This document shows, piece by piece, positions 5,924-30,436 of a stretch of 31,933 nt of DNA. Every line of letters starts with the position of its first letter. The first letter of the stretch is position 1. The stretch is from a virus. The notes beneath the pieces were generated by a model. The model worked only from the letters and a program-made list of their open reading frames with translations, was not told the DNA's origin and did no database searches. A program made the translations under genes and the position numbers. Where the stretch lies: IMG/VR virus record IMGVR_UViG_3300042691_007379, positions 1 to 31,933 of that record. One strand, 5' to 3'.

Positions 5924-5982
5924 CAAACTGACAAACAAATAAAAAAAGTAAGGCTATAAACTGACAAAAAAAACTTTTAAAA

Positions 5983-6010
5983 TTTGACAATTAAATAATT
6001 TGTATATTTG
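5983..6010 (+). promoter_or_regulatory. Bacteroidota-type promoter for the packaging/late operon
   Basis: TTTG at 5983-5986, a 16-base spacer, and TATATTTG at 6003-6010, a full match to TAnnTTTG. It sits in the 119-base gap after the primase-helicase, 32 bases before the ATG at 6043. The gap holds no hairpin that I can see. It would start the terminase-head transcript. Confidence 0.65.
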
Positions 6011-6042
6011 CACAATGGCAAAGTGTGTTAAAATGCGATAAA

Positions 6043-6315: not shown

Positions 6316-7663
6316 AGTTTATTCTCAAGCATTAACAAGCCAAAAGAGATATTTAGTTTTGAAAGGCGGAGCAGGAAGTGGAAAATCTATTTTTGCAGTC
6401 CAAAAGTTAATTTTAAGAGTTACCTCAGAAAAAAAACATAGGATTTTATGTGTTAGAAAAGTTGCCACCACATTAAGAAACTCAATCTATCAATTGGTGA
6501 TTGATAAACTTATTGAATACGAAATCTATTCAGAGTTCACCATCAACAAATCGGAAATGAGATTTACTCACAACCCAACAGGAAACGAATTAATCCTGCA
6601 CGGTATGGATGACCAAGAGAAAATCAAATCTATTGCCGGGATTACATCAGTTTGGTGTGAAGAAGCCACCGAGTTAGACGAATTAGACTTTAATCAGTTA
6701 GAGTTAAGGGTAAGAGGTGAAACAAGCACCTACAAACAATTTATTATTACATTCAATCCAATATCAGAACAGCATTGGTTGAAAAAAAGGTTTTTTGATA
6801 ATCAAGACAGCGAAACTTACATACTTAACACCACCTACAAAGACAATTCATTCTTAGACGAGGATTACATTCACCATCTGCAAGAAAGAGTTAAGGCGAA
6901 CCCAAATCTATACAAAGTTTATGTTTTAGGTGAATGGGGCAAGGTAGATTTTGGAGGTGAGTTTCTTAAAAGTTGGAGTACAATAAAACACACTTCAATA
7001 GTTTCTTATGATCCATCACTTGCTATTTGGTTATCATTCGATGAAAACGTAAACCCTTATTTTCCATGTGGCATTTTTCAAGTTAGCGATGAGAATGAAA
7101 TAAGAATGATTGATTGCATAGCACTGAAAAACCCCGACAACACAACAAAAGCAATGGGCAGGGCAATATTAGCCAAATTAAGACAATGGAGACATTCAGG
7201 CTTTGTTTATGTGTGTGGTGATAGTACATCGCAAAAAGACGATGTTAAGCAAGAAAAAGGATTTGATTTGTTTAGGCTATTGATAAATGAATTAGACGAA
7301 GTTAAACCTATCCGCAGAGTTGCCAAGTCAAATCCAAATGTACGACCATCTGCTGACTTCTTTAATGCTATTTTAGACTATCAAGAACAAGGGATTAGTT
7401 TTGTTGCCGATGAAAGTTGCAGAGTTGCGATTTTAGACTTTGAAAACACAAAGGAGGATAAAAATGGTAAGGTAGATAAAAAGACAGTTACAGACCCAGT
7501 TACCAAAGTAAGCTATCAGCCATACGGACACATAGTAGATTTAACACGCTACCTAATTACAACCGTATTCAGCAGTCAATATTCTAAATTCCAAACAGGA
7601 TTAATCAAACCTTTTACAATTGTGGGCCGAGATGCAGAATACAAATCCACATCAAGATTTTAG
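6296..7663 (+). CDS. Terminase large subunit
   Basis: A 455-residue DNA-packaging motor. Walker A is GGAGSGKS at residues 24-31. Walker B is ITSVWCEEATELDE, with the acidic pair Glu122-Glu123. The segment FNPISEQHWLKKRFF near 150-165 is the usual coupling region of PBSX/terminase_3-like ATPases. The C-terminal nuclease domain shows YVCGDSTSQKDD with an Asp on a strand, and a late Asp in GHIVDLTRYL, fitting an RNase H-like fold. Length is normal. The start overlaps the small subunit gene. It cuts concatemers and pumps DNA through the portal encoded downstream at 8383. Confidence 0.92.
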   Translation: MEIKVNKVYSQALTSQKRYLVLKGGAGSGKSIFAVQKLILRVTSEKKHRILCVRKVATTLRNSIYQLVIDKLIEYEIYSEFTINKSEMRFTHNPTGNELILHGMDDQEKIKSIAGITSVWCEEATELDELDFNQLELRVRGETSTYKQFIITFNPISEQHWLKKRFFDNQDSETYILNTTYKDNSFLDEDYIHHLQERVKANPNLYKVYVLGEWGKVDFGGEFLKSWSTIKHTSIVSYDPSLAIWLSFDENVNPYFPCGIFQVSDENEIRMIDCIALKNPDNTTKAMGRAILAKLRQWRHSGFVYVCGDSTSQKDDVKQEKGFDLFRLLINELDEVKPIRRVAKSNPNVRPSADFFNAILDYQEQGISFVADESCRVAILDFENTKEDKNGKVDKKTVTDPVTKVSYQPYGHIVDLTRYLITTVFSSQYSKFQTGLIKPFTIVGRDAEYKSTSRF

Positions 7664-7671
7664 TTACATAA

Positions 7672-7704
7672 TTTGATTAAATAAAAAATTTTGTTACAAT
7701 TTTG
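7672..7704 (+). promoter_or_regulatory. Possible promoter with a GTTACAA operator-like site
   Basis: TTTG at 7672-7675, then CAATTTTG at 7697-7704 (one base off TAnnTTTG) after 21 bases. TTGTTACAA at 7691-7699 overlaps the -7 region and is identical to the sequence at 14490-14498 in the operator region of the minus-strand regulator. It lies in the 45-base gap before the ATG at 7709. A shared repressor is possible but rests on a 9-base match in AT-rich DNA. Confidence 0.35.
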
Positions 7705-7708
7705 CATT

Positions 7709-8383
7709 ATGGCAAGATTTTTAAAGACCTCCGATTATTCTTCAATTATCCAAACGGTTGACCTCAATCAAATTACCGAGAATGTAGTTCAGAATTTGTA
7801 CGATAGTGAAGTTAAGGCAATCAGTAGAATGAGGACAAAATTAGTCCAAAGGTACATGGTTGACATTGAACTTGGAACGATGGATGCCTATTCATCAGCA
7901 AAACATTACAGGACAAGAGATAGAGTAATTGCAGGCGAAACGATAACCCACGTTAATGACTTTAATAGATGGGTAAAAACAACTAATTATGTTATAGGAA
8001 ACATCGTTACTGATGACAATGGTTATGTGTACACAGCGATTGCCAATAGCACTAACCAACCTTTGACATTAACAGCGTATTGGACACCAATGACCAACAT
8101 TGCAACCTCCAACGCTACTTATTGGGAGGTAGGCGATAATCGTTATCCTATGTTTGTTGAGTTGGCAATGGATATGACACTTTACAACCTACACGCAAGA
8201 ATAAACCCACGCAACATCCCAGAGTTAAGAATTGAACGCAACAGAGAAGCCTTAGACCAATTAGACAGATGGGCAAGTGGCACAGATACAGCAGAAGTGC
8301 TTAACATCAACACAACAGATAGTACAGGGTATTCAATCAGATACGGAAATAGTTTAGACAAACAAGATAATTTCTTTAAATAA
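7709..8383 (+). CDS. Head/head-tail connector region protein with a carbohydrate-binding-like module
   Basis: I take the ATG at 7709 (MARFLKTSDYSS), 224 residues; an upstream TTG at 7691 is in the presumed operator. The first 65 residues and last 80 are mostly helical, with features reminiscent of Mu gp36-like (DUF1320) head-tail proteins. Between them (about 90-135) sits a module with the pattern W-x5-Y-x2-G-x2-V...GYVYTA...P-x5-YW, as in family 5/12 carbohydrate-binding domains. The same pattern occurs in the protein at 12772. Gene order (terminase, this gene, portal) suggests a head or connector part; the inserted module may decorate the particle surface. The family call is tentative. Confidence 0.6.
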   Translation: MARFLKTSDYSSIIQTVDLNQITENVVQNLYDSEVKAISRMRTKLVQRYMVDIELGTMDAYSSAKHYRTRDRVIAGETITHVNDFNRWVKTTNYVIGNIVTDDNGYVYTAIANSTNQPLTLTAYWTPMTNIATSNATYWEVGDNRYPMFVELAMDMTLYNLHARINPRNIPELRIERNREALDQLDRWASGTDTAEVLNINTTDSTGYSIRYGNSLDKQDNFFK

Positions 8384-13459: not shown

Positions 13460-14311
13460 ATGAAAAGAATAAAAACAACAGACATTACAACGAGTGCAGC
13501 GATGCCAGTTAAACAAGGCACATTAGACCATTTGCAGAGTGCTTATACGGAGATAGTTGGTGCTTTATATTTAAGTTCAAATAGAGTAAATATATTGCCT
13601 GAAATAGTGTATGGTTGCAAATTAACACAAGTAGGTAGTAATTGGAGTATAACAGCGGGAGCAGTTTTTATTGCTATAACAAATGAAATATATTTATGTG
13701 ATGCAGCAAGTGGCACATTAGGAGGCGGTCAAAGTATTATAGGAACAATTACAACAACAAATGTAACAGCCGCAAATGCAGACCCAGTTGAATTTTCAAA
13801 TGGTTCAAGTTATGATGTTCACCAAATAAATAAAATTGTTTGGTCATCAGGAACAAGTGGAGGAAGTGTAATAACTTATAATACAATAAAAAATTTACGC
13901 AAAGGTTATTTTCAAACATTAACATATTCATCCGCCTATCTAACAGCAAATGTTGGAAATTGGACAGTGCCAAGTAGTTCAGATTTTATTGTTAGCGTTT
14001 CAATTATAGGAGTACAGGCAATAGTAGATATTCAAATAAATAATTACACAAATACAAATAGTGCAGCAGTAACATTATCTTTAGAACTTATAGTGTCAGG
14101 ATTAAATATAATTCGCAACACAATGTCAATAGGTTTTGTAGATGATTTGGGAGGTGCAAAAATAGCTCAATTAGAGGGTGTTGTTGGTACAAGAACAGTA
14201 AATATTACAATTCTTAGTGGAATTGATAATCCTACATTTACAAACTTTAACGCAAATGGTGCGGGTAAATTAAGAGGACAAATTACTTTAGAAATAGATA
14301 GTTTAACCTAA
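13460..14311 (+). CDS. Tail-fibre-like protein
   Basis: A 283-residue Ser/Thr/Ile/Asn-rich, strand-dominated protein with few charged residues, as typical for a fibre or receptor-binding protein. The N-terminus (MKRIKTTDITTSAAMPVKQGT) resembles baseplate-attachment segments in other Bacteroidota fibres. The centre contains GGGQSIIGTITTTNVTAAN, and the C-terminal 120 residues look like a jelly-roll-type domain. No enzyme motif. It is preceded by the two baseplate-like genes and is the last plus-strand gene before the convergent minus-strand regulator, whose stop overlaps this stop by 4 bases (14308-14311). Confidence 0.55.
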   Translation: MKRIKTTDITTSAAMPVKQGTLDHLQSAYTEIVGALYLSSNRVNILPEIVYGCKLTQVGSNWSITAGAVFIAITNEIYLCDAASGTLGGGQSIIGTITTTNVTAANADPVEFSNGSSYDVHQINKIVWSSGTSGGSVITYNTIKNLRKGYFQTLTYSSAYLTANVGNWTVPSSSDFIVSVSIIGVQAIVDIQINNYTNTNSAAVTLSLELIVSGLNIIRNTMSIGFVDDLGGAKIAQLEGVVGTRTVNITILSGIDNPTFTNFNANGAGKLRGQITLEIDSLT

Positions 14312-14478
14312 AACCTATTCGGTTTATCCTCATAATGTTTTGAGATAATATTTCTCACAAGTTCAGATTCTTTGATGCCAGTCTTTAAAACTTCGTCAAA
14401 GAATTTGGCTTTTGCAGTACCTCTCAAATCACAAGTTACTCTTGCCTTTTGTGCTTTTCTTTTTTCTTCTGGTGTCAT
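14308..14478 (-). CDS. Ribbon-helix-helix-type (Arc/CopG-like) regulator
   Basis: The only convincing minus-strand gene in the window, 56 residues, starting at the ATG read from 14478. A basic N-terminal arm (TPEEKRKAQKAR) leads to a short strand (RVTCDLRG), helix A (TAKAKFFDEVLKTG) and helix B (KESELVRNIISKHYE). A strand plus two helices, with the turn between them near Gly34, is the ribbon-helix-helix plan; such proteins bind DNA as dimers. The 59-base gap upstream has a 12-bp inverted repeat covering a -7 box for this gene and one for the protease at 14538, so autoregulation and control of the capsid genes are likely. Not a phage repressor family that I know. Confidence 0.7.
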   Translation of the reverse strand: MTPEEKRKAQKARVTCDLRGTAKAKFFDEVLKTGIKESELVRNIISKHYEDKPNRF

Positions 14479-14491
14479 AATTAAAAAAGTT

Positions 14492-14537
14492 GTTACAAAT
14501 ATAAAATAATTTTTTAGTAACGATTTATTTTTGTAAC
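14492..14537. promoter_or_regulatory. Divergent promoters within an inverted-repeat operator
   Basis: GTTACAAATATA (14492-14503) and TATTTTTGTAAC (14526-14537) are inverted repeats matching at 11 of 12 positions, separated by 22 bases. The left arm read on the minus strand contains TATATTTG, a perfect -7 box for the regulator; the right arm contains TATTTTTG (14526-14533), a perfect -7 box for the protease gene. Neither has a clear TTTG at -33. A repressor bound to the two arms would block both promoters, and the adjacent small regulator is the obvious candidate. Confidence 0.6.
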
Positions 14538-15662
14538 GTGATTAAAGAACTAAGCAAATTATCAAATATTTCTGATGGCGTTGCAACCATCCGAATTTAC
14601 AAACACATTGGAGATGATGCCGACTTAGGTTATGGCGTTAATGGTGCTTGGATTGCTGAGGACATTGCAATGCTTAACGAAAGTTATTCAGACCAAGTAA
14701 AAACAATTAATATCCGTATTAATTCAATTGGTGGAAGTGTTGCGGATGGATTATCAATTGTTTCTGCAATTTTAAATTCAGAAATACCTTGCAACACATA
14801 CATAGATGGAATGGCTTACTCAATGGCGGGAGTTATTGCTATTTGTGGTGCTAAAAAATACATGGCAGATTACGGAACATTTATGATGCACAATGCCAAT
14901 GGAGTTCCAGACGAAGAAGTATTAAACTTAATCACAAATTCACTTGCTAAAATCTTTGAAAGAAACACAAATCTAACAATGGATAAATGCAAGGACTTGA
15001 TGAGTAAAGAAACTTGGATGAGTGCAGATGAATGTATGAACTTAGGTATCATTGATGAAATAGTTGTTACAAAACAAAAGTCAATTGCCATGAATAGCAA
15101 TATCTTTGAACTACAAAATATTTACAACAAAATATTAAACAAAACAGAAAACAAAATGATAAAATTAACTGAATTACTTAAATTAAGCAACGAAGCCTCT
15201 GAGGATGCAATCGTTGAAGCAGTAAATGCTAAATCAGAAACTATTGCCAACTTAGAAGCTAAAATAGGTGAACTAACAAATGAGTTAAACGCACTTAAAG
15301 AAAGCAACGAAGCAGCAGAAAATGCAGCTAAGATTGAACTTGTAGAAAATGCAATCAAAGAAGGTAAAATTGATGCAGCAACAAAAGAAATCTATTTAGT
15401 AAGCAATAAATCAAATGTTGAATTAAAAGAAGTGTTTGCAAAATTAAAGCCTGCCTACACTCCAATATTTGAAAACAAAAAAGCATTAGAAAATTTGCCA
15501 GCAGGAAGAGAAAGTTGGGATTTTGCAAAGTGGAGCAAAGAAGATCCAAAAGCACTTGCCGAAATGCAAAAAAACGATCCAAACACATTCAATTCATTAA
15601 TAGCAAAGTTACCAAGTGAATTGTCAAATAACTATAATCCATTAACAGACAAAAGATTTTAA
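14538..15662 (+). CDS. ClpP-type prohead protease fused to a scaffold-like domain
   Basis: A 374-residue protein from GTG 14538. Residues 1-190 are a ClpP/S14 fold: strand DGVATIRIYK, INSIGGSVADG (60-71), nucleophile Ser95 in YSMAG, and His118 in MMHNANG; an Asp near 153 may complete the triad. Residues 207-270 are Glu/Ala/Leu-rich coiled coil, and the C-terminus (about 330-374) holds a D/P/W-rich helix. This is the protease-scaffold arrangement of Mu gpI: the protease trims scaffold and capsid during head maturation. The GTG is 4 bases after the -7 box, so the mRNA may be leaderless. An internal ATG at 15156 (residue 207) could make a separate scaffold. Confidence 0.85.
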   Translation: MIKELSKLSNISDGVATIRIYKHIGDDADLGYGVNGAWIAEDIAMLNESYSDQVKTINIRINSIGGSVADGLSIVSAILNSEIPCNTYIDGMAYSMAGVIAICGAKKYMADYGTFMMHNANGVPDEEVLNLITNSLAKIFERNTNLTMDKCKDLMSKETWMSADECMNLGIIDEIVVTKQKSIAMNSNIFELQNIYNKILNKTENKMIKLTELLKLSNEASEDAIVEAVNAKSETIANLEAKIGELTNELNALKESNEAAENAAKIELVENAIKEGKIDAATKEIYLVSNKSNVELKEVFAKLKPAYTPIFENKKALENLPAGRESWDFAKWSKEDPKALAEMQKNDPNTFNSLIAKLPSELSNNYNPLTDKRF

Positions 15663-30084: not shown

Positions 30085-30177
30085 TCTAACGTTTTCGGGC
30101 TTGGCGAAGTGCCGCTACTCGAAACTTAAATTTTAGCACTAACTGTCCTGCGGCATTTTGCCAAACCCGTGTTATAT
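30085..30177. repeat. Complete attC-like hairpin, E2
   Basis: Left core TCTAAC (30085-30090), spacer GTTTT, arm CGGGCTTGGCGAAGTGCCGC (30096-30115), a 34-base loop, arm GCGGCATTTTGCCAAACCCG (30150-30169), then T and the right core GTTATAT (30171-30177). The 20-bp stem has two G-T wobbles and one C-A mismatch at the same relative places as in E3. Core TAAC pairs with GTTA; the left spacer is 4 bases longer, leaving a strand-asymmetric bulge. These are the traits of integron attC sites, with the caveat that the right core does not match GTTRRRY exactly. Confidence 0.6.
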
Positions 30178-30247
30178 GAAGTGCCGACTTATTTACGATA
30201 AAGCTCAATTGAAACAATAAACAGAAAAACAAAAAGAAAAAAAAGCG

Positions 30248-30436
30248 ATGGAAAAAATAAAATACGATTACAACTGCAAACATTACTTTGGTATTGTATC
30301 TGCCGAAAGCGAAGAAGAAGCAAAAAAAATATTGCATAAAGACCATACTGGGAATGGGGATAAGCTATGTAATTGGAGTAAAACAACAAAAAACGATTGT
30401 CAAAAAAAATGTCAACTAACTTTAAAAATAAAATAA
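30248..30436 (+). CDS. Small Cys-containing protein, cassette 3 first gene
   Basis: 62 residues. YDYNCKHYFGIVSAESEEEAKKIL is a strand-turn-helix arrangement, followed by HTGNGDKLCNWSK and a basic end with CQKKCQLTLKIK. Four Cys (residues 10, 41, 51 and 55) could bind a metal or form a disulfide, but the spacing does not match a zinc finger that I know. It begins 70 bases after the right core of E2. The next gene begins 1 base after its stop, so the two are one operon within the cassette. Confidence 0.5.
   Translation: MEKIKYDYNCKHYFGIVSAESEEEAKKILHKDHTGNGDKLCNWSKTTKNDCQKKCQLTLKIK

Follow-up and report, generated by a model that had tools for sequence, protein, structure and literature searches.

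By analogy, the nearest functional parallels to the locus described here are the C protein of bacteriophage Mu and SvtR of the archaeal virus SIRV1. According to excerpts of the published account, Mu C binds upstream of the -35 region at the phage late promoters Plys, PI, PP, and Pmom (PMC4461284). SvtR is a small ribbon-helix-helix (RHH) regulator which, in the excerpted text of its source, binds the promoters of its own gene and of a virion structural gene, and AvtR of virus AFV6 is an RHH protein that represses its own gene and is able to activate others (PMC5569661). The Pseudomonas protein AmrZ, as described in excerpts, also represses its own gene and can activate others, from position -282 (PMC3325190). 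In the parts of the open-access literature covered, we recognized no description of late-gene control for the phage group considered here, of its RHH family, or of its promoter box.

The window, an entire IMG/VR virus record of 31,933 bases, contains a locus in which an RHH protein is probably a dedicated late switch of the virion-building genes. The terminase, portal, and MuF-like genes lie upstream of this locus, and the operon that follows it (target operon 1) has the order protease, two small ORFs, major capsid, and DUF2586 sheath. The features of the locus are:

14308–14478, minus strand: gene of the RHH regulator (P0001), 56 aa, with a predicted strand at about residues 10–17 that includes R13 and T15, and helices at 20–33 and 37–51
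14490–14498, plus strand: box 1, TTGTTACAA, with GTTAC (14492–14496) starting at -46 relative to the protease start; shares bases with the -7/start region of the RHH promoter
14496–14503, minus strand: -7 box of the RHH gene, TATATTTG, with its predicted +1 at 14491
14515–14525, plus strand: box 2, TTAGTAACGAT, the middle copy, with GTAAC at 14517–14521; lost in locus L007
14526–14533, plus strand: -7 box of the protease operon, TATTTTTG, in the arrangement TTTG-N4-GTG
14530–14539, minus strand: box 3, with GTAAC (14533–14537) at -46 of the RHH start site on the minus strand; overlaps the protease -7 box
14538–15662, plus strand: head maturation protease, assigned by profile matches, heading target operon 1

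The proposed regulator resembles Mu C in being a phage factor for virion promoters with a site upstream of -35, as the latter is characterized in excerpts (PMC4461284). It differs in that the -7 boxes are of the TAnnTTTG type and the regulator gene adjoins its target divergently. The head genes of the window are Mu-like in order, and gene I of Mu encodes the protease, so that PI precedes a protease gene, as the promoter does in the window. Mu C is not known to be an RHH protein, and P0001 had no Pfam match to the Mor/C family; Mu C is presented as an analogue only. SvtR is likewise a small RHH regulator of a virus, and its structure (2kel) is among the best fold matches of P0001; however, SvtR represses, its site is some 80 nt away from the promoter elements, and it operates in archaeal transcription (excerpts of PMC5569661). 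No sequence relation between SvtR and P0001 was found. AvtR differs in having two fused RHH motifs and AmrZ in activating from -282, compared with -46 for the site proposed here, while the CopG/Arc repressors share the fold and differ in their target promoters and in the phage context of P0001.

A preliminary description of this DNA had recognized P0001 as a 56-residue RHH protein encoded on the minus strand, and both modeling and selection bear this out. The AF2 model (20-member alignment, monomer) had a mean pLDDT of 91.5, with helices at residues 20–33 and 37–51 after an extended stretch in which DSSP found no strand, because the partner subunit is absent from the monomer. Nearly all of the named top Foldseek matches were RHH proteins: CopG (TMt 0.76), SvtR (2kel, TMt 0.78), AtaR, PutA, AmrZ, Arc, and ParD. 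Their E-values were weak (best 0.77, all >0.7), as expected for a protein of just 56 residues. VIA-align gave a best Z of 6.1, with 32 of 61 chains at Z ≥ 5 and a Z of 5.6 for 2kel, and sequence identity to structural matches of the CopG/Arc type was about 14% or less. Purifying selection is evident from dN/dS values of 0.05–0.27 over ten pairs of family members. Judging from the model and these values, P0001 is a genuine, constrained protein of the RHH type.

Sequence searches were less informative. P0001 matched no family in Pfam, PHROG, or NCBIfam at E ≤ 1 and had no relative in 50,697 phage records; searches of the solved structures by sequence, with P0001 or its profile as query, gave no RHH match; and no named phage had a DNA match to the window. 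Searched against the profile libraries, 20 members of the family gave weak matches only, to RepB-RCR_reg in three (best E 0.027) and to an Arc-like repressor PHROG in one (E 0.073). Many relatives have a conserved C-terminal -RF (NRF, ERF, or HRF; window 14308–14320) outside the RHH core, which is possibly a contact surface. L087 and L320 encode a fusion in which an HTH-like domain precedes the RHH domain; L087 has weak Trp-repressor and sigma-4 matches.

Scanning IMG/VR with P0001, the protease, and the capsid yielded loci L002–L154, of which 134 included the protease N-terminus and 77 of those were distinct. In 73 of the 77 distinct loci, this survey of relatives showed the start of a divergent RHH gene immediately before the protease. 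Three of the exceptions (L026, L030, and L048) have contig ends within 100 bases of the protease, and the fourth, L149, has an RHH-like ORF on the protease strand. Later scans found the same arrangement in L266, L312, L316, L320, and others. The small gene had been thought to be a compact insertion, which is ruled out by its synteny with the protease throughout the group, down to about 36–44% protease identity.

The downstream gene is the head protease, as first described, a ClpP-type protein with matches to PF00574 (E 1e-19) and phrog_2976, head maturation protease (E 6e-40). The RHH ORF and the convergent ORF at 13460–14311 do share 4 bases at their stops; the reading of that ORF as a fiber gene has no Pfam or PHROG match behind it, and is consistent with its mosaic conservation across relatives, in which the N-terminal part is kept and the C-terminal part often is not. 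That the RHH gene is the only opposed gene is plausible and not proved, as further minus-strand ORFs of at least 50 aa are present in the window. Two of these were compared with the collected loci: the ORF at 30086–30346 matched the window itself alone, and the ORF at 493–675 had matches that were very near or partial only.

The minus-strand unit is normally the RHH gene alone. L084 has an extra 52-aa minus-strand ORF between the RHH gene and the protease, matching Imm_superinfect (PF14373, E 7e-14), which indicates that the unit can carry cargo; L122 has an additional 94-aa minus-strand ORF at the same place, without a match. The arrangement has boundaries. No RHH gene or box was recognized in L313 and L319, and L318 has an HTH-like plus-strand gene in the slot; these three were excluded from the covariation set described below. 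Among the distant protease relatives L272–L310, no RHH gene was recognized in those sampled (L273–L276, L280, L300, and L306). In a genome scan, 14 of 80 matching loci were examined and only L362 had the box together with an opposite-strand RHH gene; as L362 is a contig in a Bacteroidetes MAG, the host can be inferred as Bacteroidota only.

The inverted repeat reported between the two genes is present, with 11 of 12 pairs matched over the 12 bp claimed, and its arms extend to 14 nt (14492–14505 and 14524–14537, 93% complementary). The -7-type boxes reported on both strands fall inside these arms. While the arms are real, the repeat had been incompletely described, as the third copy, box 2, sits between them. 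These observations support a shared divergent operator that overlaps both -7 boxes, with an RHH-type regulator beside it.

The intergenic DNA of the relatives fell into 12 clusters at 70% identity. GTWAC was the top 5-mer, being present in 11 of the 12 (shuffles: mean 2.15, maximum 7) and in two or more copies in 7 (shuffles: mean 0.17, maximum 2). The copies are often paired 22–25 bp apart, within TTGTNACAA or TTAGTNACTAA palindromes. When the distinct protease promoters were anchored on the -7 box, GTWAC stood at one of two positions in 70 of 71: -46 (59 promoters) or -45 (11 promoters). These came from 73 promoters, of which our script could not anchor L066 and L086 and mis-anchored L151; by hand, L086 and L151 fit, the latter with GGTAC at -46. 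There is no conserved -33 element at the box-bearing protease promoters. Taken as sequence, the supposed operator is a promoter signature, GTWAC-N32/33-TTTG-N4-start. The single half-site is uninformative, as TTGTNACAA with one mismatch is not enriched in the whole window (42 versus 41 expected); it is the spacing to the -7 box that is informative. GTWAC itself is over-represented across the window (79 versus 51.7 expected), mostly within genes, which is unexplained.

In F. psychrophilum, excerpts of the published data place the -7 box at -12 to -5 and the leaderless share of mRNAs at 5.5% (PMC9723704). Based on that position, TTTG-N4-start puts +1 on the start codon, and the late promoters are predicted to give leaderless mRNAs. 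In L133, L143, L266, and L271 the protease seems to begin with ATC at the predicted leaderless +1, where relatives have ATG or GTG.

An RHH fold is common to several antitoxins, and P0001 could in principle be one, or a small protein kept for some other reason, with the repeat being a chance product of AT-rich DNA. We regard this as highly improbable, since no toxin-like partner was seen and the minus-strand unit is normally the RHH gene alone. A chance repeat, furthermore, is ruled out by the enrichment of GTWAC far above shuffles and by its fixed spacing to the -7 box.

The same box occurs at a second virion operon (target operon 2), whose features are:

7661–7670, plus strand: -46 box of the adaptor/portal operon, TTAGTTACAT, with GTTAC at 7663–7667
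7691–7699, plus strand: second copy at the adaptor/portal promoter, TTGTTACAA, found in the window clade and in loci L210 and L223
7697–7704, plus strand: adaptor/portal -7 box, CAATTTTG, followed by N4 and ATG
7709–8383, plus strand: first gene of the operon, 224 aa, not clearly matched to any family in its own right; portal and MuF-like genes come after it

Counterparts of the 224-aa gene in two relatives have a weak match to a head-tail adaptor family. The box is at -46 in 40 of 41 distinct upstream regions, the exception being L165, with GTCAC, and the flanking terminase end varies widely among relatives. At least two virion operons are thus marked. The preliminary description had suggested an effect on capsid, protease, and scaffold, with earlier genes spared, which the box before the adaptor/portal operon does not support; the idea of a single-operon repressor is weakened likewise.

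Within the window GTWAC-N33-TTTG occurs four times: at 7663 (plus), 14492 (plus), 14537 (minus), and 27569 (inside a gene). As shuffles of the window gave a mean of 1.03 and a maximum of 4, the bare count alone is not decisive. The copy at 14537 marks the RHH gene's own promoter in this phage. Among relatives, a -7-type TTTG of the RHH promoter abuts or overlaps a GTWAC box in at least one sequence of 11 of the 12 clusters. In the largest cluster this abutment or overlap occurs in 2 of 47, and the minus-strand composite in 36 of 47.

We also scanned 13 records without restriction to known targets, taking ORFs of at least 40 aa preceded by TTTG-N3-7-start as candidates (n = 169). GTWAC was at spacer 32 in 7 and at spacer 33 in 11 (18 of 169), against a background of about 0.4 per other spacing, except at 55–57, where 7 cases are second copies. 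Thirty-nine candidates had [TC]AnnTTTG, and 16 of these had the box. The box-bearing targets included the protease, the 224-aa adaptor-position gene, and adaptor-position counterparts in four other records, those of G007 (282 aa) and G010 (330 aa) with weak head-tail adaptor matches and those of G013 and G014. In L312 and L316, box-bearing ORFs of 285 and 287 aa lie a long way upstream of the protease, and G010 has the box at two more genes, of which one follows the tail tube and the other has weak matches to baseplate and lysis genes. In the control records (lotta8-1, FPSV-S1, part of fF4, and L149), 0 of 42 candidates had the box at spacer 32 or 33, and one had it at 31. Eight further loci gave 64 candidates, with four at spacer 32 and four at 33; three of these box occurrences are the L087 record again, and those in L265 (at 2733) and L315 (at 10668) are not evident targets. 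There was no TTG peak at -33 over 16 box-bearing promoters. The [TC]AnnTTTG promoters without a box had no clean -33 TTG peak either, the best position having 3 of 23.

Which protein the box belongs to is best judged from lineages in which the RHH protein has changed. The covariation set consisted of 24 lineages hand-picked to span the diversity, with close relatives left out. Where the predicted strand reads [RK]-x-T, GTWAC was at -46/-45 in 19 of 19 lineages, and also in L271, where the contig ends within the RHH gene. L151, with the strand RVS, carries GGTAC at -46, and the same TTGGTACA recurs ahead of its 284-aa ORF, with a spacer of 32. In L314, with RVV, the sequence at both -46 and -68 is GTGGCAC, which repeats the 22-bp pairing. 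In L315 the strand is aberrant and GTTAC is only at -32, and the box is missing from L149, whose RHH-like gene is on the protease strand, with TTTGAC upstream instead. The R-x-T of the P0001 strand falls on what we take to be the same two positions as the base contacts R4 and T6 of CopG. As judged across these lineages, box and protein are conserved together, and box and beta strand change together. This covariation, which rests on the two altered lineages L151 and L314, is the main reason for assigning the box to the RHH protein. Promoters distant from the RHH gene have the box as well, and it could belong to another factor, such as a host protein or a phage sigma-like protein, with the RHH gene a mere neighbor of different or purely local role. 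We consider this improbable, based on the joint change of box and strand in L151 and L314 and on the fact that neither the Winoviridae isolates without the RHH gene nor the L149 record have box promoters. Moreover, the boxes are palindromic and often paired at 22–25 bp, and RHH sites can be both.

We infer both the binding of the box by the RHH protein and the sign of the regulation. Our leaning is toward a protein that recognizes the -46 box, activating the late structural operons and holding down its own promoter. RHH dimers would bind the short palindrome with the core GTWAC, ideally TTGTNACAA or TTAGTNACTAA, and a dimer bound at -46 would, less certainly, activate the promoter in place of the missing -33 element. 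The same dimer would cover the -7/start region of the divergent RHH promoter and limit synthesis of the protein itself; autorepression is predicted in the window because box 1 covers the RHH start region. The targets, read as leaderless mRNAs, would be the virion operons adaptor/portal and protease/capsid/sheath; in the L087 phage they would further include a gene shortly downstream of the tail tube and a gene of baseplate type with weak matches. In the window clade, a high level of the protein could also close the protease promoter, with box 3 covering its -7 box.

The resemblance to activator sites lies in the fixed -46 position at two unrelated promoters combined with the lack of a conserved -33 element, although it is only suggestive that the box stands in for that element. 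The fixed spacing could be partly inherited; however, the second promoter is not homologous to the protease promoter. Two features speak against activation and are suited to repression: the overlap of box 3 with the protease -7 box in the window clade, and, in the largest clade (47 members), a third GTAAC immediately upstream of that -7 box. The protease of the window clade could be repressed through boxes 2 and 3.

A pure repressor, which binds the boxes and silences both its own promoter and the late structural ones early in infection until relieved, is an alternative to be weighed, and one that we regard as possible but doubtful. RHH proteins are mostly repressors, according to excerpts of PMC3325190, and SvtR represses its own gene and, in the excerpted text, probably a virion (tail-fiber) gene as well (PMC5569661). 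The overlap of boxes with -7 elements in the window clade agrees with this alternative, as does the superinfection-immunity gene (PF14373) in the minus-strand unit of L084, which fits early expression. However, occlusion needs no constant -46/-45 position, upstream of the core promoter, at both the protease and adaptor promoters, and the box-bearing promoters have no conserved -33 element. The earlier proposal that the protein represses these genes is hence matched, at least equally well, by activation.

A wider form of the activator reading would make this undescribed RHH family the late activator of a wide group of Bacteroidota-type myophages, self-repressing and co-evolved with the box that defines a promoter class. 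That class would have GTWAC at -46, a -7 TAnnTTTG, and a leaderless start, at virion operons, with the slot held by an unrelated HTH-like regulator in the isolated Winoviridae. On the sequence comparisons above, we judge the chances of this whole reading to be evenly balanced. If activating, the protein would join the short list of known RHH activators as a phage late regulator. A fixed late-promoter signature would allow virion operons to be predicted in many metagenomic contigs and would lend itself to clear tests in Flavobacterium or Bacteroides, and the strand-to-box series is useful for the study of DNA recognition by RHH proteins.

A comparable slot is seen in isolated Winoviridae. In the Flavobacterium phages lotta8-1 and pippi8-1, gp33 is a 60-aa minus-strand gene product in the slot before the protease, and FPSV-S1 has an unannotated 64-aa counterpart resembling it. 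Unlike P0001, gp33 is by eye HTH-like and not RHH, and it has no Pfam match. The repeats also differ: two genomes each have a single pair of TAAAGAC direct repeats, 11 bp apart, immediately ahead of the protease promoter. The position thus seems to be a regulator slot. A small HTH-like slot gene is on the minus strand in the Winoviridae isolates L155, L159, and L156 and on the plus strand in L318. Among the 20 records listed of 28, the window capsid shares 33–37% identity with capsids from Winoviridae and Porphyromonas phages; the window also has a DUF2586 sheath. At 5927–6017 of the window, repeated TGACAA-type motifs, without a GTWAC box, precede a TATATTTG-N4-ATG promoter and the terminase genes; these motifs are possibly sites of another regulator.
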